Source: a virus
IMG/VR virus record: IMGVR_UViG_3300030390_001178
Coordinates: 1 to 20,963 of that record
Reading direction: 5' to 3' (one strand)
Length of the DNA stretch: 20,963 nucleotides
Below the pieces are notes generated by a model. The model was given only the letters and a program-made list of their open reading frames with translations. It made no database searches and was not told where the DNA came from. A program made the translations under genes and the position numbers. This document shows positions 8,990 to 19,826 of this stretch, one piece after another (within the stretch, counting starts at the first letter, position 1; the number at the start of each line of letters is the position of its first letter).

Positions 8990-11900
8990 ATGGCTGAATT
9001 AAAAAGAAATTTTAATAGTGCAAAGATGAACAAAGATATGGACGAGAGGGTTTTACCTTCTGGTCAATATCGAGATGCTTTAAATGTTCAGATAGCTAGT
9101 TCTGACGGATCAAACCTAGGATCACTTCAGACCTTACTTGGTAACGCGGTGGTTAGTAATGAAGATATATTATCTGCACATTCTAAATGCGTGGGTAGTG
9201 TAACTGTTGGTGAAGAAAATAATATATACTATTTTATATCAAGAGGTGGTGGAGGTGGTTCTATTCCAGACATTCAAAAAGATTTTATAGTAAGATATAA
9301 TACTATACTTAAAACTTCTGAGTTTATTTTTGTTGACATTTTTAGTGCTAAAGCAACTGTTTCAGCTAACAACACTGGTGGTAATCAATATTTAGATATA
9401 AATACTGGCAGTAACTTGTGGACTAATGGTATAAGAGTTGGCATGTTATTAACAGGTGATTTAAACGATCCAGGTAGTTCTACTATAGCATCAGTGTTTG
9501 AAAGTAACAATGCGGCTGTTACTGATGTAGTTTCTCAAGGTAGTAATGTCTGGAGAATATATTACAGCGGTCCAACAACTTTCAAAGCAACATCTGGAGA
9601 TATAGTTAGATTTAAAAGCGATAGAGTTTTACAGTTTCAACACCACATAAAAGTACATAATATAAACCACTTAGAAGGAATGTTATTTTGGACTGATGGT
9701 TTTTCTGAACCTAGAAAAATTCACATTGAAAGAAGCGAAGCTGGTACTGGTGGTACTGGACCTTTAGCTAATTGGAACTTGTTACAAACAACTGCTCAAA
9801 ACTTAAGTGGAGGTTTATTAAACAAATATACATTTATAGGTCAAAATAATAGTAACTTCCACACAAGGCTTTGTAAAAGAAGAGGTGAATTAACATCAGC
9901 TCTTGAAGTTTGTACTAATAGAGTTGGATCTTTACCGATAAATGCTAGACTAGATCATCAAACAGTTATAAAAAAAGGACCTAATAAACCTTTAGAATTA
10001 TGTATGTTTTCTCAAGCACCAGACAGAATAAACGATGATGAGGAGGTTAATCCAATATTTGCAACAACAAACCTAACTGCTTTTGGTGATATTGATGGTG
10101 CTTTTGATGTTGGAACGCTAATGACCTTAACTTTTGGAACGGTTATAGATTTAAGAGTTGGTGATACTGTATTGTTAATTCAAGCAGATAGCAATTTAAG
10201 TCCATCAGAGTTTCCAACAGACAAAGCTTTTGTTTCAGTTCAAGTTCTAGATCCACTACCTAACAATGCAACTCCACCAAACACGCTATCTGTTGGTCCT
10301 TTTAATGTAGTAATAAATAGCGTTAGCCCAGACGCTGGTAGTTCACCAGAAAACTGGTTAGCTAGAGTTGAGCTTGAAAAACCTTTATTTGAATACAAAT
10401 TTCCTAGATTTTCTTACAGATGGAGATACCAAGATGGTGAGTACTCTACATTTGCGCCTTGGTCTTGTGTAGCTTTTATACCTGGTGATTTTGATTATAT
10501 GCCTAAAAAAGGTTTTAATCTAGGTATGACAAATAGATTAAGATATTTAAAATTAAAAAATTATTTTCCAGAGTTTGCAGCTTTTCCAGAAGATGTTGTT
10601 GAGATAGATCTTTTGTACAAAGAAGCTGGTAAAGCAGAAGTATACACTGTAAAAACAGTAAAACCAAAACATGGCTCTCCAACATGGTCAGATTATAAAG
10701 CAAACTATAAAGATAGAGGAACTTTTGAAATAACATCAGAAATGATACACGCTATAGTTCCTTCAAATCAATTACTAAGACCTTGGGATAACGTTCCTAG
10801 ATCTGCAAAAGCTCAAGAAATATCTAGCAACAGATTAATATATGGTAACTATTTACAAAACTACACTATAGATGAGACTTTAAAATTACAAGTTACTTCT
10901 AGACAAAAACCTATAGTACCAGATGCAAAGCTTACAGATTATGAAGAACCAAACTTATCAGTAAAAAGTTTAAGAACATATCAAGTCGGTGTTGTGTGGT
11001 CAGATGAGTATGGTAGAGAAACTCCTGTAATGGTTCCTAAGCAAGGTGGCTCTGTAACAATACCTAAGAAACATTGTATATTTGCCAACCAGTTACAAGC
11101 AAAAATATTAGAAGATACAGTAATACCAAACTGGGTTGAATATGCTAGTTACTATGTTAAAGAAACTTCTAACGAATATTACAATTTAGCTATGGATCGT
11201 TTTTACGATGCTGAAGATGGTAATGTTTGGCTTTCTTTTCCATCAGCTGAAAGAAACAAAGTTCAAGAAGACACATATTTATATCTTAAAAAACAGCATG
11301 ATAACGCTACAGCTGTAGTAGACAAATCTAGGTATAAAGTTATTGCTATTTCAAACGATGCACCTTTGTTTATTAAAAAGAAAAGAAGAAGCTTTGGTTT
11401 TGAAACTATTGAATACAACGTTAATGGTTTGCCAGAAGCTGGAAGAAATTTTATAAGGGTTGCTTATGATCAGTTTAATGCTATCTTTGGAGCTATTGTT
11501 GGACCACCTGCGTTGACCGAGCTACAGTTAAGAGTTGCAGGTATTGTTGGTAATGATGTTATAACATCTGATGTTTACGATGTTACGTCAGTTCAAATTG
11601 AGGGCACGGGAACTAGTGGTGAAGTTAAACTTGTTATTGAAAATAGTTTTGGTTCTGAGGTTAATGCTCTTGCTGGTTTAAACGCACAAACTCAATTAAA
11701 ATTAGAAATATTTCAAAATATTTATATTGACAAACCAGAGTTTGACGGAAGGTTTTTTGTTAAAATATTAAAAGATATAGCTTTAGAAAAACAATTATTA
11801 TCTAATTTTGAAGATGTTTACGACTACACTGTTGTTGACACAATGCAAATAGGTTATCTTAATGGTCAAACTGGAAAAGATGAACCTTGGTGGACGGATT

Positions 11901-14900
11901 TTAATCAAGATCACGAAAACCTTGGTGGTTATGCTGACGAAATAAACAGATGGGTAATAGATGACATGGACACGTACCAAACTGGTTCGGCGTTTAATAC
12001 TCACAACATAAATAGAGGAGGTGCATATAACTATAAACAAAACACACTTACAGGTGAAGGTCAGTCTAGTGGTCATGGCTACTTAGATATAAGTTACTGT
12101 TGTTTTGACAATGAAGCTTATCTTTTTGGACAAACAATGTTTACAACACCCTATGACAGGTTGAAAGTAGCAGATACTCTTTTTAGATTTAAACAAGATC
12201 CTGCTCAAGTTGTTTATAAAGTTCTAGGATCTAAAGGTAGGCTAGGGCTTTCACACAACTCAGGGGAAAATGCCGGGTTAGTAGGAGGTGGTACAACATC
12301 TCCAGGAGACTATGTAAGCTATAGAGATGATGGTAATAGTGCTTGGATTTTTCAAGACAACTCAACCGCTCCACTAATTGGTAGTGCAAGTGATTATATG
12401 TGGAACCATGACGGAGGTAGTCGTGATACACACAATCTAAGAGCTAGTCTTAGATTAAAGTTAGACAAAATGATGGGTAGTGGACCAAACCACATATTTG
12501 ATAGTAGCACTATGGCGCCGATGTCAACAAAAGATCCTATAACTGGAGAGTTAGTAGCTCTTGTAGATGGTGATAGATATGATCAAGCTGTTATTGGTGG
12601 AACTGTTAATGGAACTACATACCCTGTTGGTCATTATCATAACTGGTACCCTTTCACTAGTAACACTGGTGCTATATTAGATGATTCTAATCAACTTGTT
12701 GCTGGTATTGAATACCCTACATCTATGACGCCTAACACTAGTTATGGTGATCAAATGAATATTTCACCAAACTACTTCAGTGCTTGGGCAAGTAATTTAT
12801 ACACTAATTCTTCAAATAATATTATACTTGCAGGACAACCGACATCTGAGAGTTCAAAGCATTTTGTTACTATAGAGTTTTTAGAACCAACAGTATCTTC
12901 ATCTGGTGGATCAGACCAAAAGTATAGCAGCTTAAATCCTGCTATATGGGAAACAGAACCTAAAGAAGATGCTGATTTAGATATATATTACGAAGCTAGC
13001 GCTAAAATACCTGTTAATCCAGATCACAAACAAAATGAATTATTAATTTCTTTAGGTGCAACGTTTAGATTTCCAATTACGGGTCCTAATTATGATGAAT
13101 ACAAAGTTGTAGATGTAAACGCTGTGCCAGGAAAACCATATTTATCAGAGATAGATGTTGAGCATATATACAACTCTGCTAGTTATACCGCCAACTCAAG
13201 TCCTAATATTACTAATACTTACAGTAATGGAATTCCTCACGACACGTTTTTAAGATTTAAAAGATACGACAAAGCTACTTTCTTTGCTTATGTTAACAAA
13301 AATGGTGGAGCTGCAGCCGGTCAAACTAAAATACAAATAACAACTGGCGAAGATTCAATAAATCAAGTTACTAATATAATACAAGATGGTAGAAGACCTA
13401 TTAAAAGTCCTTATGGTTTAGGTTGGTTTAATTGTTGGGCTTTTGGAAATGGAGTTGAGTCAGATAGAGTTAGAGACGATTTCAACGCTCCACAACTTGA
13501 CAATGGGGTCAAAGCTTCTACAACACTAGCAACACCTTACGAAGAAGAAAGAAGATCTAGTGGTTTGATATGGTCTGGTATTTTTAACTCAACTTCTGGT
13601 GTTAATAATTTAAACCAATTTATACAAGCAGAACCTATAACTAAAGACTTAAGTCCTACTTACGGTCCTATAAACAAACTGGTTGCAAGAGAAACAAACA
13701 CTTTAGCGTTTTGTGAGGACAAAGTTCTTAACATGTTGACTAATAAAGATGCTTTATTTAACGCGGATGGAAATACTAATGTAACATCGACAAACAATGT
13801 TATAGGTCAAGCTACTCCAATACAAGGAGACTATGGTATGTCTGGCAACCCAGAAGCTTTAGCTGTAACACCTATGTCTATATTTTGGTGTGATGCTTAC
13901 AGAGGTCAAGTACTGAAATTGTCTGGAGGTACTACTATAACACCTATATCAGATGTAGGTATGAAAGATTATTTTAATGATGCTTTTTCAGGTTTTGGTT
14001 TACTAGAGATAATAGGTTCTTGGGACGAGAAAAAAGACGAGTATAACGTATGTATTGGTTATAGTGTAAAAGAAAACACTAGCAATAGTAAAGGTAGATT
14101 AACACCATATCCAAATAACTTTACAGAAAGTAAAAAAACAATATCTTGGAGCGAAAAAGTTCAAGGCTGGACATCTTTCAAATCTTTTGCGCCAGAACAA
14201 GGTAACACTTTAAACAACGAATACTTTACTTGGAACAAAGGTACAATGTATCAACACCATGTAGAAGAAGATACTAGTGGTAACACTGTTAATGCTAATT
14301 ATTTTTATGGAGCTCAATACTACTCTGATGTAACATTATTTCTTAACGACCAACCTGGTTCTGTTAAAAGCTTTGGTACATTAAATTACGAAGGTACTCA
14401 GTCTAGAATCACACAAGGTGTTGCCACTGAAAGTGATGGTAGTTCTAGTGATGGTCAATATGTTAATCTAAATACTAAAACTGGTTGGTATGTTGATTAT
14501 TTAACAACTGACCTGCAAGAAGTTGGAAACTTAGAGTTTAAAAATAAAGAAGGCAAATGGTTTAGCACTATAAAAGGTGTTACAACAACTCTAGATAACT
14601 TAGATGAAAGAGAGTTTTCTGTTCAAGGTTTAGGAAATGCAAACACAAATAACACGAATATTAAAACTTTACATGAAGTAAAAGTTAAACCTCACTCAGC
14701 TTCAGCATCTGGAACAAACTGGGACACAACAGCAGATAGTACTTTATGGAGAATACATCCCAACTCAGTGTTTACAGATTACAAAGCTGGAATAAGCAAT
14801 TCAAACAACAACACGTTTCAAATTTTTAGATACAGCGGAGAGTCAATTGATCCTGCTACAAACCAACGTTTAAACGGGTTTTTTTTACACCCACTTGGTT

Positions 14901-17194
14901 TTACTGAATTAGATGCTATTTGTACCGGTATAATAGATAACTTAAAAGACAATGGAAGTGGAGTTTTTGTTTATAGTGGTTTAAATTTAGATGCTAAAGA
15001 CTTTAGTGTTCCTGGTGGTACGATGAGCATTATTGGAAACAACTCTGCAGGAGAACCTATTTACAAATGGTTAGATGATGGAAGTTGGAATGCTGACACA
15101 GAAGTTCATTATGTTACTTTTGAAAATTTAGACGAACCACACACACCAAACAATACAATTAGGTTTGCAATGTTTCATGACACGTTTACAATGCCTGCAG
15201 CTGACAAAACTATTCATTTTGATATTGATGGACCAAGTGCTAATACACATGGTGGTGGTCAAGATTCTAGAAATTTACAATTTAGAGTTAACAAAGGCCC
15301 AGCAAATCCTGGCTCTGTTGGTCAAATAGGTCGTATTGGTGGTGTTCCTCAATACGGTCCGGGTACTGGAAATGGCGGACAGTATGTGGATGGTTTTCTT
15401 TGGGATAATATTTCTAGTACAAGTGCATCAGTTCTTGCGAGCGGTTTTAATAATCACCCTAGTGGTTACGTAATACCAGCTATGCACGGTTGGGATCCAG
15501 TAGGACATCCTTATCAACTTACTAATGAGTTTGCGGGAGTTGTTCCTCAATATGCTACAACAAAAGTATTTACTTACAAGTGGGTAGGTTGGGCAGCATC
15601 AGGTCTGGGAGCAATAGGAGGTGGTAATCCTCAATTTTACCTAGTAGCAAATTCCGATGGTAACGGTGGTAAATTAAAATTTGATTTTCACGCAGGAGAT
15701 CCTTACACTGCTCATTTCACCGCTGTTTATACTAACACTTACTGGCCTAGTCACCCTAACTTAATAAAAGAATGTGAAGTTGATATATTTTATACTCCAC
15801 CAATAAATGGAGAAATAAACTCAAACAACGGTGCAACTATGGATCCAGATCCAGATCCTTCATATCCTTTTACTATAATGCGTAGCTACCCGCTTTGTTT
15901 TAATGAATATTATAACGCGCAACCTTTGCCTGTAGTTAATCCGGCACCAAGAATAATGAACCAAAATGTATCATATTCTAGTCCTTTAAGTCAAAACTCG
16001 CAAATAATTATTGCTAACACTGATGGTACTGGCGGTCAATGTAACTTGTTTATTAAAGATGCTACTCTTAATAAATACTATAATACTTCAAACGACACTT
16101 GGGGATCATCTACTCCCTACGCAAATGTTGTTACGGCAGTAGGTAGTAGAATTGCACAAAATGTAGTTTTACCAGCTCACACAGCAAACTCAGCTCATAA
16201 TTATCAATATTACTTTACTGTAACTTCTGGCGGGAGTGGCTTAGTACATTTAGCTTTAAGCGCGGAAATTCCTTCTTCTTTATCTACAGCTGGTAGTTTC
16301 TTTCAAAAAGGTTCTACAACAAGTAATATCAACATAGGTGCTAAAACAGATACAACAAGAGTTCCAACACTTGTTAACGGTGTTACTTCTAATAAAAACG
16401 ATTTAGGCGGTGAAGGTAAGATTAGTACCGTAAGAATAAATGCCGTATACACTGCTGATTCAAATAAAACTATTGCTGTCAATAGACAACCTATAGGTAC
16501 TGATATTACTGGTGGTACAAAAACTATAACAATACAAGCCGCAGCAAGTGCTGGTGCAAATATTTTAAGAGTTGTACCATCTGAAGTTGCTGATCTACCT
16601 AGCAATGAAGTTATTCAAAATCACAACTACATACTACAAGAAAGTGTAACTACAGATGTTATTAGTTCAAGTAGCGCTGGAGATAAAAATGATAACCACT
16701 GTTCTTTTGCTACTGCAGATAGAGCTAAAGCTACTGTTGGAGAAAGTGTTACCTCTAATATTTTACCAGAAGGAACTCTTATAGCAGCAACCAACAGTCC
16801 TAGTGGTCATATACAGTTTAGCAAAGCTTTCTTAGCTAATTTTAGTGCTGGCACTAAGTTTTATTTAGGCGGAACTTTTAAACCTGGTACTAAGATTAAT
16901 AGTATTGCTGCTGTTGAAGGAGTTTCTGCTTATAAGAATTTAACTTTAAGCACAACTATACTTAATGATATTCCAGCTGGAACTGAATTAACCCTTAATA
17001 ATGGTTGGAATGTTTCAGTACGGTTAAAAGCTGAAGCTATAGGAACAGAGACTGTAACAGGAAACAGTGGTAGCAAAGTGGTGTCTACCGTTTTTAACAA
17101 ACAAATATACGTCACAGGGACAATAACGTTTACTACTTCAGGAGTAATAAACACAAATTTAACATTAGTACCTAACTTTATAACAGTATCATAA
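8990..17194 (+). CDS. Giant muzzle/nozzle-type tail protein, 2734 aa
   Basis: The largest gene here, 8.2 kb without interruption. The N-terminus (AELKRNFNSAKMNKDMDER, PSGQYRDALNVQIASSDGSN) and later blocks match what I know of the large tail protein (muzzle) of crAss-like phages, functionally comparable to the T7 gp12 and P22 gp10 nozzles: FWTDGFSEPRKIHI near residue 233; RFSYRWRYQDGEYSTFAPWS near 472; SDEYGRETPV near 670; YYVKETSNEYYNLAMDRFYD near 720; EDKVLNMLTNKDALFNADGN near 1575; and WSEKVQGWTSFKSF near 1720. These suggest a propeller-like body ending near residue 1800. Beyond about 1900 the sequence becomes Asn/Thr/Gly/Ser-rich and family likeness fades. Residues 2593-2668 hold two copies of a beta repeat. 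This distal part is probably exposed and may bind the host. No catalytic motif was found. It is followed one base later by a small virion gene. Confidence 0.8.
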   Translation: MAELKRNFNSAKMNKDMDERVLPSGQYRDALNVQIASSDGSNLGSLQTLLGNAVVSNEDILSAHSKCVGSVTVGEENNIYYFISRGGGGGSIPDIQKDFIVRYNTILKTSEFIFVDIFSAKATVSANNTGGNQYLDINTGSNLWTNGIRVGMLLTGDLNDPGSSTIASVFESNNAAVTDVVSQGSNVWRIYYSGPTTFKATSGDIVRFKSDRVLQFQHHIKVHNINHLEGMLFWTDGFSEPRKIHIERSEAGTGGTGPLANWNLLQTTAQNLSGGLLNKYTFIGQNNSNFHTRLCKRRGELTSALEVCTNRVGSLPINARLDHQTVIKKGPNKPLELCMFSQAPDRINDDEEVNPIFATTNLTAFGDIDGAFDVGTLMTLTFGTVIDLRVGDTVLLIQADSNLSPSEFPTDKAFVSVQVLDPLPNNATPPNTLSVGPFNVVINSVSPDAGSSPENWLARVELEKPLFEYKFPRFSYRWRYQDGEYSTFAPWSCVAFIPGDFDYMPKKGFNLGMTNRLRYLKLKNYFPEFAAFPEDVVEIDLLYKEAGKAEVYTVKTVKPKHGSPTWSDYKANYKDRGTFEITSEMIHAIVPSNQLLRPWDNVPRSAKAQEISSNRLIYGNYLQNYTIDETLKLQVTSRQKPIVPDAKLTDYEEPNLSVKSLRTYQVGVVWSDEYGRETPVMVPKQGGSVTIPKKHCIFANQLQAKILEDTVIPNWVEYASYYVKETSNEYYNLAMDRFYDAEDGNVWLSFPSAERNKVQEDTYLYLKKQHDNATAVVDKSRYKVIAISNDAPLFIKKKRRSFGFETIEYNVNGLPEAGRNFIRVAYDQFNAIFGAIVGPPALTELQLRVAGIVGNDVITSDVYDVTSVQIEGTGTSGEVKLVIENSFGSEVNALAGLNAQTQLKLEIFQNIYIDKPEFDGRFFVKILKDIALEKQLLSNFEDVYDYTVVDTMQIGYLNGQTGKDEPWWTDFNQDHENLGGYADEINRWVIDDMDTYQTGSAFNTHNINRGGAYNYKQNTLTGEGQSSGHGYLDISYCCFDNEAYLFGQTMFTTPYDRLKVADTLFRFKQDPAQVVYKVLGSKGRLGLSHNSGENAGLVGGGTTSPGDYVSYRDDGNSAWIFQDNSTAPLIGSASDYMWNHDGGSRDTHNLRASLRLKLDKMMGSGPNHIFDSSTMAPMSTKDPITGELVALVDGDRYDQAVIGGTVNGTTYPVGHYHNWYPFTSNTGAILDDSNQLVAGIEYPTSMTPNTSYGDQMNISPNYFSAWASNLYTNSSNNIILAGQPTSESSKHFVTIEFLEPTVSSSGGSDQKYSSLNPAIWETEPKEDADLDIYYEASAKIPVNPDHKQNELLISLGATFRFPITGPNYDEYKVVDVNAVPGKPYLSEIDVEHIYNSASYTANSSPNITNTYSNGIPHDTFLRFKRYDKATFFAYVNKNGGAAAGQTKIQITTGEDSINQVTNIIQDGRRPIKSPYGLGWFNCWAFGNGVESDRVRDDFNAPQLDNGVKASTTLATPYEEERRSSGLIWSGIFNSTSGVNNLNQFIQAEPITKDLSPTYGPINKLVARETNTLAFCEDKVLNMLTNKDALFNADGNTNVTSTNNVIGQATPIQGDYGMSGNPEALAVTPMSIFWCDAYRGQVLKLSGGTTITPISDVGMKDYFNDAFSGFGLLEIIGSWDEKKDEYNVCIGYSVKENTSNSKGRLTPYPNNFTESKKTISWSEKVQGWTSFKSFAPEQGNTLNNEYFTWNKGTMYQHHVEEDTSGNTVNANYFYGAQYYSDVTLFLNDQPGSVKSFGTLNYEGTQSRITQGVATESDGSSSDGQYVNLNTKTGWYVDYLTTDLQEVGNLEFKNKEGKWFSTIKGVTTTLDNLDEREFSVQGLGNANTNNTNIKTLHEVKVKPHSASASGTNWDTTADSTLWRIHPNSVFTDYKAGISNSNNNTFQIFRYSGESIDPATNQRLNGFFLHPLGFTELDAICTGIIDNLKDNGSGVFVYSGLNLDAKDFSVPGGTMSIIGNNSAGEPIYKWLDDGSWNADTEVHYVTFENLDEPHTPNNTIRFAMFHDTFTMPAADKTIHFDIDGPSANTHGGGQDSRNLQFRVNKGPANPGSVGQIGRIGGVPQYGPGTGNGGQYVDGFLWDNISSTSASVLASGFNNHPSGYVIPAMHGWDPVGHPYQLTNEFAGVVPQYATTKVFTYKWVGWAASGLGAIGGGNPQFYLVANSDGNGGKLKFDFHAGDPYTAHFTAVYTNTYWPSHPNLIKECEVDIFYTPPINGEINSNNGATMDPDPDPSYPFTIMRSYPLCFNEYYNAQPLPVVNPAPRIMNQNVSYSSPLSQNSQIIIANTDGTGGQCNLFIKDATLNKYYNTSNDTWGSSTPYANVVTAVGSRIAQNVVLPAHTANSAHNYQYYFTVTSGGSGLVHLALSAEIPSSLSTAGSFFQKGSTTSNINIGAKTDTTRVPTLVNGVTSNKNDLGGEGKISTVRINAVYTADSNKTIAVNRQPIGTDITGGTKTITIQAAASAGANILRVVPSEVADLPSNEVIQNHNYILQESVTTDVISSSSAGDKNDNHCSFATADRAKATVGESVTSNILPEGTLIAATNSPSGHIQFSKAFLANFSAGTKFYLGGTFKPGTKINSIAAVEGVSAYKNLTLSTTILNDIPAGTELTLNNGWNVSVRLKAEAIGTETVTGNSGSKVVSTVFNKQIYVTGTITFTTSGVINTNLTLVPNFITVS
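16766..16993 (+). repeat. Two-copy protein repeat at the C-terminus of the giant tail protein
   Basis: Residues about 2593-2629 and 2631-2668 of the tail protein share the pattern P-x-G-T-x-I, a variable stretch, then S-x-x-x-L, then A-G-T-x-x-x-L. The first copy begins PEGTLIAAT and ends SAGTKFYL; the second begins KPGTKINSI and ends PAGTELTL. The copies are diverged at the protein level and not obvious in the DNA. Short beta repeats of this kind are common in phage fibre and adhesin stalks, which fits a surface-exposed tip. Confidence 0.5.
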
Positions 17195-17195
17195 T

Positions 17196-17534
17196 ATGCC
17201 ATCAGTATTAACATTTTCTCAACCGTTAAACGTATCACTTCAAATAGGTGACACAGCTTACTATGCACCAATTGGAACTTCGGGTGGTTTTTCTATTAAC
17301 TCATCTAGCATTATAGAAATAGGTGTTGTAACTGCTATATCTGGTCTTGTTGTTACCGTTGGTACTAGTTTAGTTTCTGTGCCTAATGGTGCTTATATAT
17401 TATTTAGCAAAGATAATAAAGCAAACTTAAGTAGTGCGCTTGGTTACTACGCTGAGGTTAAGTTTAAAAATGATAGCACGGACTACTCTGAGTTATTTTC
17501 TATAGGGGCTGATATATTTGAAAGTAGTAAATAA
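17196..17534 (+). CDS. Small virion protein of the tail cluster
   Basis: A 112-aa beta-rich protein. It opens with MPSVLTFSQPLNVSLQIGD and TAYYAPIGTSGGF, has a hydrophobic middle (GVVTAISGLVVTVGTSL), and ends with LGYYAEVKFKNDSTDYSELF followed by SIGADIFESSK. The C-terminal part (G-Y-Y-A-E-V-K-F, E-L-F-x-x-G, E-S-S-K) is a signature I associate with small conserved proteins beside the large tail gene in crAss-like and related phages, of unproven function. The ATG follows the giant gene's TAA by one base, so translation is probably coupled and the product is likely made in proportion to the tail protein. It may be a small tail or head decoration component. No cysteines, no signal peptide, no membrane segment. 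Confidence 0.7.
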   Translation: MPSVLTFSQPLNVSLQIGDTAYYAPIGTSGGFSINSSSIIEIGVVTAISGLVVTVGTSLVSVPNGAYILFSKDNKANLSSALGYYAEVKFKNDSTDYSELFSIGADIFESSK

Positions 17535-17575: not shown

Positions 17576-18028
17576 ATGAATAAAGATATTAAGTTATCTA
17601 CAAGAAAGAAAATCTTAGATTTTCAATCGATGTTGATACGTGAAGCTAATGGGGTAGACATTGTAACACATCAAGACTCAAAACTGTTTCCTTTGAAGCA
17701 TACTTTTGCTGATGGCATATATGTTAGACAGATGAGTATGGATAAAGGAACTATCGTTGTTGGAGCAATACATAAACATTTACATGTTTGGTTTTTATTA
17801 ACCGGACATATTTCTGTTGCAACAGAAGAAACTACAGAGGATTATATAGCGCCGTGTTATGTTGTAGCGACACCAGGAACTAAAAGAGTTATATATGCAA
17901 ATGAAGAAAGTATATTTGTAAACATACACAAAAACCCTACAAACTCACAAAATATAGAGTGGTTAGAAAAAGAGATTGTAGCTAAAGATATAAAGGAATA
18001 TGAAGATTACATTAACAAAAATAAATAA
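17576..18028 (+). CDS. Cupin-like phage protein
   Basis: A 150-aa single-domain protein of a type repeatedly found in marine phage genomes near tail genes, with unknown role. An N-terminal helix (residues 8-24) is followed by a beta-barrel: FADGIYVRQMSMDKGTIVVG (44-63), the cupin-1-like segment AIHKHLHVWFLLTGHISV (64-81), then YIAPCYVVATPGTKRVIYAN (90-109) and SIFVNIHKNP (112-121). Histidines 66, 68, 70 and 118 could bind a metal. The usual glutamate of cupin motif 1 is missing, and Val105 stands where motif 2 normally has histidine, so this is not a canonical metal-site cupin. A fully enzymatic role is therefore uncertain; it may be structural, bind a sugar, or act on host metabolism or surface. 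It has its own A/T-rich leader rather than a coupled start, unlike its neighbours, and is followed three bases later by the next gene. Confidence 0.72.
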   Translation: MNKDIKLSTRKKILDFQSMLIREANGVDIVTHQDSKLFPLKHTFADGIYVRQMSMDKGTIVVGAIHKHLHVWFLLTGHISVATEETTEDYIAPCYVVATPGTKRVIYANEESIFVNIHKNPTNSQNIEWLEKEIVAKDIKEYEDYINKNK

Positions 18029-18031
18029 GAT

Positions 18032-18715
18032 ATGAGTTTTTTAATAGCAGGAGCGGTTGTTGGTGTTGGTGCTGGTGTAGCTAAAGCTATATCTGGTGGT
18101 AAACAAAAAAGAGCAGCTAAAGAAGCGGAGGCTGCAGCTAAAGCAGATATGGAAAAGCAAAAAAATGCTTTTTCAAACCTAGACACTAGTAATCCCTACG
18201 CTAACATGGAGAACAAAATGGAAGACTTACAGGTTAATACACAAGAAGCTGACTTTATGAAAGCTCAACAACAGCAAAATCAAGCTAATATAATGCAGCA
18301 AATGAAAGGTGCTGCTGGTAGTTCTGGTATAGCTGGTTTAGCACAGACTTTAGCAAACCAAGGAAGTATGGACGCTCAAAAATCTTCAATATCAATTGGT
18401 AAGCAAGAAGCTAACAACCAACAACTAGAAAGACAAGCTGCTTCTCAAATTCAAGATCAAGAAAGATCAGGTGATATTATGTCAAGAGATATGGAAAGAA
18501 ATAAAGTATCAACATTGTTAGGTATGGCACAGTCTGAAAAAGCTGCGGCAAGCGAACAGGTTGCTGCTGCCGACTCAAAAATGTGGTCTGGTATTACTGG
18601 AGCTGCTGGATCTTTAGCTGGCGGTTTACAAGGCATACAAAAAGCTGGTGGTATTGCTGGAATGAAAGATGGCGGTTACCAAGATTACTTAGCATCATTA
18701 AAAGAAAACTCATAA
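18032..18715 (+). CDS. Probable internal virion (DNA-ejection) protein
   Basis: A 227-aa protein with a Gly/Ala/Val-rich hydrophobic N-terminus (SFLIAGAVVGVGAGVAKAIS), then a Lys/Ala/Glu helix, an Asn-rich middle (NPYANMENKMEDLQVNTQEA), a long Gln/Ala/Met helical region with AAGSSGIAGLAQTLANQG, and a second Gly/Ala segment (GITGAAGSLAGGLQG) near the end. The build, glycine-zipper-like ends around Gln-rich amphipathic helices, resembles internal virion proteins of podoviruses such as T7 gp14, which insert into the host outer membrane during DNA ejection. I recall similar small proteins in this position in marine phages. Located after the tail genes and before two other soluble, helical, likely packaged proteins. 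The N-terminal stretch is not a cleavable signal peptide as far as can be seen. Role inferred from composition and context. Confidence 0.65.
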   Translation: MSFLIAGAVVGVGAGVAKAISGGKQKRAAKEAEAAAKADMEKQKNAFSNLDTSNPYANMENKMEDLQVNTQEADFMKAQQQQNQANIMQQMKGAAGSSGIAGLAQTLANQGSMDAQKSSISIGKQEANNQQLERQAASQIQDQERSGDIMSRDMERNKVSTLLGMAQSEKAAASEQVAAADSKMWSGITGAAGSLAGGLQGIQKAGGIAGMKDGGYQDYLASLKENS

Positions 18716-18716
18716 T

Positions 18717-19826
18717 ATGAAAAAAACACCATTAAAACAAGCAGATGGTACTTTAGTATCAGGAGCATATAGAGCGGCCTCAGCTGGAAACCGTCAACCT
18801 GATGGCTTCTCACAAGGTATGGATAAGCTAGCACAAATTGGACAAAGTATGGTTGACCAATATGTTGATACGGCTCAAGAGGCACAAAAAACTGGAGATG
18901 ATCTTGCTAAAAAAATATTAGATACTGGCGGTGGACTTGGTACTAGTTGGTTAAACGTTGTTCAAGGAGATGTGAAAGGACTTCATGGTAATTATAAAAA
19001 AGCAGCTAAGTTTGGTAAGAAAGGAAAAAAAGCTGAAGGTATGCAAAACTTAAATACATTGTCAGCAGAAGTAGCATCAATAAAAGATCTCAACTCTCAA
19101 ATAGCAGAGTGGCAAGGTCCTCCTGGTACGCCAAGTGACTGGTCTAAAAGTTTAAAAGAAAAAGATCAAAACATAATAAACGCTTTTATGGATAACAGAT
19201 CTAAAAAAAGATCTAGAATGGTTAATGGACAAAGAGTATTTGAAGTTGAAACTCCTGAGGGTTTTATGTCTATTCAGAAAATAGAAGAGATTGCTACTAA
19301 CGCTAAAAAAGATTATTCTACAATGCAGAACATTAGAGGTAGTGTTATTGAAGAAGTCAACAAAGGTGTTGAGCATGCTTTTAAAAATGCACAGTTTGGT
19401 TACGTACCACCTGATGAGAGAGAAAAAATAAAAACTAGGACTATAAAAAACTTAAAAGCTGGTAACTTAAACTCATTAATGCATGATGATATTTTAGAAA
19501 CTGGTGGTTCTTTTTTAGAAGATATTATTGAAATGCCTCAGTTAAAAAAAATGAAATATAAAGATTTAGGATTAACACCGCCAGAAGGTGATGATGGTGT
19601 TATGAACGAAACACTAACAAAGGAACACATGCAAATGATAGCTGATAACTTGGCTAAACCAGAAAACAAAGAGTTAGCGCTTGACTTAATGGGTGACTAT
19701 GTGTTAGGTTTTATAGACAAAAACTATACAGATGCTTATGAATCAAATGGTGGTAGTTATCAAAGTGCCGCTGGAGAAGAGTCTATGAGTGATCAGGACA
19801 TTATAAACGACGCTTTAAAAGAATAA
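18717..19826 (+). CDS. Unknown protein, possibly internal virion (cargo) protein
   Basis: A 369-aa, largely helical, hydrophilic protein that I do not recognise. It starts with MKKTPLKQADGTLVSGAYRA, a Gly/Gln-rich flexible region, then a helix (DKLAQIGQSMVDQYVDTAQE, about residues 36-55), a Lys/Gly patch (KKAAKFGKKGKKAEG), a central helical part around residues 110-250, and an acidic C-terminus (EESMSDQDIINDALKE). No enzyme motif, cysteine-rich site or membrane segment is visible. The ATG follows the preceding TAA by one base, so it is probably made together with the ejection-type protein before it. Position between that gene and the open gene running off the right edge suggests a packaged or ejected virion protein. 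Alternative: a tail-assembly chaperone or scaffold. Confidence 0.5.
   Translation: MKKTPLKQADGTLVSGAYRAASAGNRQPDGFSQGMDKLAQIGQSMVDQYVDTAQEAQKTGDDLAKKILDTGGGLGTSWLNVVQGDVKGLHGNYKKAAKFGKKGKKAEGMQNLNTLSAEVASIKDLNSQIAEWQGPPGTPSDWSKSLKEKDQNIINAFMDNRSKKRSRMVNGQRVFEVETPEGFMSIQKIEEIATNAKKDYSTMQNIRGSVIEEVNKGVEHAFKNAQFGYVPPDEREKIKTRTIKNLKAGNLNSLMHDDILETGGSFLEDIIEMPQLKKMKYKDLGLTPPEGDDGVMNETLTKEHMQMIADNLAKPENKELALDLMGDYVLGFIDKNYTDAYESNGGSYQSAAGEESMSDQDIINDALKE

Follow-up and report, generated by a model that had tools for sequence, protein, structure and literature searches.

What is the long C-terminal part of the very large muzzle protein of an uncultured crAss-like phage, and does it, as a preliminary description of this DNA proposed, bring host recognition onto the phage nozzle itself? 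The window analysed here is a 20,963-bp IMG/VR fragment whose 5′ edge falls within terL, and in which the truncated terL is followed by genes for the portal, a 377-aa protein, the major capsid protein, three further products and the muzzle. The muzzle ORF (8990-17194, + strand) runs from ATG to TAA in one intact frame of 2734 aa. It matches PHROG 14478, a virion structural family (8e-105, reaching residue 1882), and the Pfam domain crAss_MUZ_C (PF25729; residues 1769-1862, 14294-14575, +; 31.4 bits against a curated cut-off of 27), and by these two matches it is a muzzle protein, as large as had been described. Its best cultured-phage matches, the muzzles of Cellulophaga phage phi38:1 and Elemovirus (30-32% identity in the matched parts), cover residues 1-1882 piecewise in tblastn searches, and among the cultured-phage matches listed none passes residue ~1904. 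The whole protein retrieved 79 IMG/VR loci, further loci being added through module alignments to give more than 80 environmental relatives overall, and in blast comparisons with the 79 the common core ends at about residue 1884. Residues 1-1884 (8990-14641, +), where the alignments to more than 70 relatives stop, are taken here as the muzzle core; the conserved blocks do stop, as had been noted, at ~1884 instead of ~1800, and alignment to conserved muzzle sequence is absent past that residue. The sole match of the muzzle-core profile in the PDB was judged to be due to chance.

Beyond the core lies an 850-aa C-terminal module (EXT; residues 1885-2734, 14642-17191, +), homologous to stand-alone proteins of relatives. 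That some 800-900 C-terminal residues are without a match is confirmed: the module has no match in Pfam or PHROGs, its profiles give nothing meaningful against the PDB, searching the PDB with the full-length protein as a single sequence likewise yields nothing, and neither sequence searches of cultured phages nor a single-sequence query of bacterial genomes finds a homologue. The reported richness in Asn, Thr and Gly is real yet mild, at 9.6, 10.2 and 9.6% in the module as against 8.0, 7.6 and 8.2% in the core. Structure prediction, which had been suggested as a check, gives a multi-domain all-beta chain of moderate confidence in two AlphaFold2 models built from 18 and 36 sequences (mean pLDDT 62 and 66, pTM 0.36 and 0.43), with the best-predicted and most conserved all-beta domain at residues 1976-2084 (14915-15241, +; pLDDT mostly 75-92, 42-68% identity). 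Foldseek searches with the two models return nothing below E 0.001 from the PDB, the best viral fold matches being two uncharacterised proteins, A0A7S9SUB0 (E 9e-11) and A0A218MMJ7 (1e-8). Bacterial Ig/cadherin-like domains are present in seven of the 39 module proteins scanned; the window's own module shows no fibre, chaperone, lectin or depolymerase domain in Pfam or PHROGs.

The relatives (individual loci carry L numbers) place this extension in a wider setting. Downstream of the muzzle, those with enough sequence carry a homologue of a 112-aa ORF, and the muzzle itself stops 14-45 residues past the core in many relatives and extends by ~590-850 residues in others. The slot between core and 112-aa gene is occupied in all 70 complete loci and empty in none: its content is fused to the muzzle in 28, stand-alone in 32, split in five and present in both forms in another five. 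The stand-alone proteins measure 522-827 aa, and the total slot length is similar in the two states (589-850 aa fused vs 542-844 aa separate). In hhalign comparisons the fused extensions (group A1) match the stand-alone group A3 with 100% probability over 564 columns, and the further groups A2 (L060-type) and A4 are connected through transitive links (A1-A4 95%, A3-A2 98%, A2-A4 99%), the direct comparison of the fused extensions with the stand-alone group A2 being not significant. On the strength of these profile alignments, fused and stand-alone modules are one family.

The stop/start break of the separate-gene relatives maps to approximately 14720-14745 (+) of the window, at a G-x-x-W-D ... 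W-x-V/I motif. The L032 muzzle terminates in SYVGADGSGDIWDATAD-stop and its next gene begins MADWYVIS, while the fused L025 protein reads through the colinear junction as SYVGIDGSGGAWDSSSVVSAEGLKWTVADV. The window lacks a stop/start pair at the core/module border, so that muzzle and module form one chain. A quickly built tree of 87 core sequences, in which some branches are long and a few truncated rows were given their state by length, requires at least 16 changes between the fused and separate states; branches with at least 95% support alone require seven or more changes for 'fused' and six or more for 'separate'. By this tree, fusion or fission of module and muzzle has recurred. Our literature search found no paper in which a muzzle or nozzle is described as fused or split.

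Several loci show further rearrangements. Five of them (L057, L062, L065, L076 and L083) combine a muzzle extension of 560-1080 aa with an extra stand-alone slot gene of 480-920 aa; L057, L065 and L083 also have a longer 112-aa homologue, of 327-384 aa. The muzzle ORF of L063 (10001-22174) reaches 4057 aa, with large insertions near its beginning; its C-terminal extension comprises 1427 aa. The muzzle ORF lies in two pieces in L069 (10001-14430) and L071 (10001-16319), through either a real split or a sequencing error, the split falling between core residues ~768 and 1477 in the former and at ~630 in the latter.

The other border of the slot is formed by the 112-aa gene (17196-17534, +), whose product is, on the evidence of PHROG 18548, hhalign and alignment, a C-terminal piece that has separated from the ancestral muzzle. 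One end of PHROG 18548, a 241-aa profile, matches the C-terminal region of the muzzle (1.3e-12) and the other the 112-aa ORF (5.7e-8), and the 112-aa profile matches the C-terminus of phi38:1-type muzzles with an hhalign probability of 98.4% (E 4e-15). In phi38:1, Elemovirus and MW202828 the core runs in-chain directly into 112-aa-type sequence; in gut Crassvirales another gene directly follows the muzzle, and the last muzzle strands are similar in the multiple alignment, the 112-aa profile giving no significant match to crAss001 gp44 alone. As these alignments indicate, the module sits inside a formerly single muzzle chain, of which the module-free phi38:1 and Elemovirus keep core and C-terminal end joined. 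The simplest history would be that the module gene was inserted immediately ahead of the final segment of the muzzle gene, after which the upstream module border would have been lost, or re-formed, several times. The more interesting point is that an interchangeable gene product makes up the extension and lies within an elsewhere-single muzzle gene. Between module and 112-aa gene the stop and start are joined as TAATATG (17192-17198, +), a 1-nt spacing that recurs in many relatives, and this junction suggests coupled translation of the two. A gp44-like muzzle is defined by a hexamer, a ring-joining domain, a seven-bladed propeller and the crass fold, and by one chain that includes the terminal strands; the window muzzle departs from this last feature, its final segment being the separate 112-aa ORF, a lineage-wide departure that leaves the homology of the core to gp44-like muzzles standing. 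In MW202828 (L003) a 183-aa gene (16656-17218) that carries the annotation putative glycosidase interrupts the muzzle gene itself at core residue ~1685, and the C-terminal muzzle part is there fused to the 112-aa-type segment.

Hypervariation among relatives had been suggested as something to look for in the C-terminal part, and mean pairwise identities among 21 fused proteins from the clade to which the window belongs bear it out in part. Identity is 53% over residues 1-950 and 67% over 1451-1884, and drops to 46% over residues 1885-2110 and to 36% over the distal part of the module (residues 2110-2734, 15317-17191, +), which also diverges between near-identical phages. The distal module thus changes faster than the muzzle core, but not uniquely so, since a zone within the core, residues 951-1450 (11840-13339, +), is about as variable (40% identity, 32% gaps); from the order of conserved blocks this zone would correspond to the crass/IG2 insertion region. 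Two variable zones parted by a conserved stretch are as expected of two exposed surfaces, and the module displays the tail-fibre-like pattern of a conserved proximal anchor with a variable distal part. In the pair L058/L070 the capsid proteins are identical (dS 0.003) and the gene just upstream of the muzzle is near-identical; the muzzles share 28-35% identity in one mid stretch and then 94-99% at the core end, and the modules are 100% identical at the start and then ~40-60% over much of the remainder. A similar divergence pattern is seen for L029/L031. The change in L058/L070 from a nearly identical capsid side to strong divergence from the muzzle on looks like a recombination border near the muzzle start. 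In all pairs dN/dS of muzzle and module is below 0.4, no positive selection was detected in 13 pairs, and the module is no more divergent than further tail genes, for instance the 227-aa ORF. Within 8990-17534 there is no repeat longer than 18 nt of the kind expected for template and variable repeats of a diversity-generating retroelement (DGR).

The proposal that host recognition is fused onto the nozzle rested in part on the lack of a separate tail-fibre gene in the window. This is literally true, except for a 150-aa cupin-like ORF (17576-18028, +) that PHROGs labels short tail fibre; the label is that of Vibrio and Alteromonas podoviruses, and this neighbour, 73-88% identical within the window's clade and without a match in four contigs of other clades, is of uncertain role. 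The absence carries no weight, because the window begins inside terL and the fibre genes of relatives lie just upstream. Near-complete relatives do carry large genes between groEL and terL: in this interval the L005 contig encodes a protein of 944 aa that matches Peptidase_S74 and several tail-fibre PHROGs, the L070 contig a 1590-aa protein with a tail-fibre PHROG match at 2e-71, and the contig of L010, the tree row nearest the window, proteins of 654 and 616 aa with a common MKFLN start. The fused L025 contig has no large gene there, and exceptions may exist.

Other genes add further observations. In L010, L014, L016, L026 and L028 a single fused ORF of 601-604 aa takes the place of the window's 227-aa and 369-aa ORFs (18032-19826), which marks another nearby fusion/fission site. 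The L025 contig encodes a 1001-aa protein (L097:11720-14725, -) with a signal-peptide-like N-terminus, a MAM domain (1.4e-17) and a Por_Secre_tail domain, the C-terminal sorting domain of Bacteroidetes type IX secretion (2.1e-9), a phage-encoded product that is apparently meant for host secretion; at the matching place the L010 and L005 contigs encode proteins of 793-797 aa with similar N-termini, without a match to that domain.

Taken as sequence relationships, these comparisons establish that the nozzle carries a detachable, partly fast-changing tail module which has been joined or un-joined several times. That the fused and separate states are nothing but assembly errors or the product of stop-codon recoding is hardly credible: the relatives are all metagenome contigs and crAss-like phages are known for stop recoding, yet whole clades across several datasets have common states, and the break stops are TAA with the sole exception of L078 (TGA), in mixed frames, with intergenic gaps, new start codons and long reading frames on either side. 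Nearly as remote is an enzymatic module such as a capsule or polysaccharide depolymerase. Crassvirales tail regions may hold glycosidase-like proteins (review PMC10136315), and the gene within the MW202828 muzzle bears such a name; that name, however, is unsupported by Pfam, and the module itself belongs to no enzyme family in Pfam or PHROGs and has no significant fold match in the PDB. We also consider it improbable that receptors are bound chiefly by the fused C-terminus, in place of tail fibres. The variable distal part of the module, the lack of a fibre gene in the window and the absence of a large gene between groEL and terL in the fused L025 would fit this, but the large genes of L010 and L005 and the fibre matches of L005 and L070 in that interval speak against it, as do relatives that possess fibres together with a stand-alone module. 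Of the original idea there remains a separable module, fused here; the replacement of missing tail fibres is not supported.

While the anatomy of module and slot is well supported, function is inferred. Slightly favoured, in our judgement, is a putative all-beta Ig-like nozzle arm, covalently tethered in this phage, that contacts the cell surface beside the tail fibres; a conserved proximal domain followed by a variable Ig-like distal part suggests such a secondary binding or docking arm. The main rival is a purely structural module (padding, clamp, lengthening or fibre-docking scaffold) that makes no receptor contact and whose distal divergence reflects relaxed constraint. This role is possible but the less probable of the two. 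Presence in every complete relative at near-constant length, the low dN/dS everywhere, a divergence not above that of the 227-aa ORF or of the crass-tip region, the absence of positive selection and the lack of lectin and enzyme domains in the module of the window are all consistent with it. Against it stand the contrast of proximal conservation with distal variability, the sharp drop in L058/L070 despite identical capsid proteins, and the gain of Ig/cadherin-like domains by some members, while repeated fusion and fission would be easier for a surface-attached than for a buried part.

How a cell-contacting nozzle arm could be built is suggested by better characterized tails. crAss001 has a hexameric muzzle that attaches to ring R5 through its ring-joining domain (PMC10172136), and for a hexamer of the present type six modules per virion would follow. 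In SU10 the two ends of the chain together form the platform domain of the nozzle (PMC9509320), which by analogy would place the insertion point in the ring-joining/platform domain and the modules at the nozzle shoulder. The conserved proximal domain would then anchor the module at the ring-joining (platform) side, the 112-aa chain would provide the last muzzle strands in trans, and the distal all-beta Ig-like part would point outward as a secondary arm working with dedicated tail fibres. Fusion would fix the stoichiometry, the stand-alone form docking non-covalently at the same site. A bolder extension, which we hold to be plausible though somewhat short of an even chance, is that an entire lineage among the crAss-like phages has a nozzle of two or three chains, in which the inserted gene split off the last strands as the 112-aa protein acting in trans and became an obligatory cell-contact arm, repeatedly fused and released.

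Regarding gate opening in crAss-like nozzles, the published structure proposes that the crass tip touches the cell. The present comparison points to a second module, apparently undescribed, as a putative virion part attached to the nozzle; it is present in 70/70 complete relatives, free in some and fused in others, and these natural forms make its position, copy number and role directly testable. A family of uncharacterised virus proteins thereby gains a likely place in the virion, and a nozzle gene is seen to have been broken up through gene insertion.

Among known systems, crAss001 gp44 (1371 aa; Bayfield et al., 2023, PMC10172136) resembles the window muzzle in its PF25729 family, in its order after ring-type proteins and in core blocks that align, but is one chain to the last strands, with the cargo gene gp45 directly next and no slot module. 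Insertions that alter length within the muzzle family have been described (PMC10172136), but these fall within the crass and IG2 regions rather than at the C-terminus. The closest cultured muzzles, phi38:1 gp97 (1324 aa) and those of Elemovirus, differ from the window in having no module and the 112-aa segment fused straight after the core. A0A7S9SUB0 (Virus NIOZ-UU157) and A0A218MMJ7 (uncultured virus) match the module in predicted fold and the stand-alone slot proteins in size. The SU10 nozzle protein gp17 (1005 aa) is alike in its working, with a nozzle hexamer, Ig-like nozzle domains and side-docked appendages, but its appendages are separate trimeric fibres held on a tryptophan dock loop at residues 839-857 (PMC9509320); it has no sequence relation to the window muzzle, and the likeness is one of analogy, not membership.
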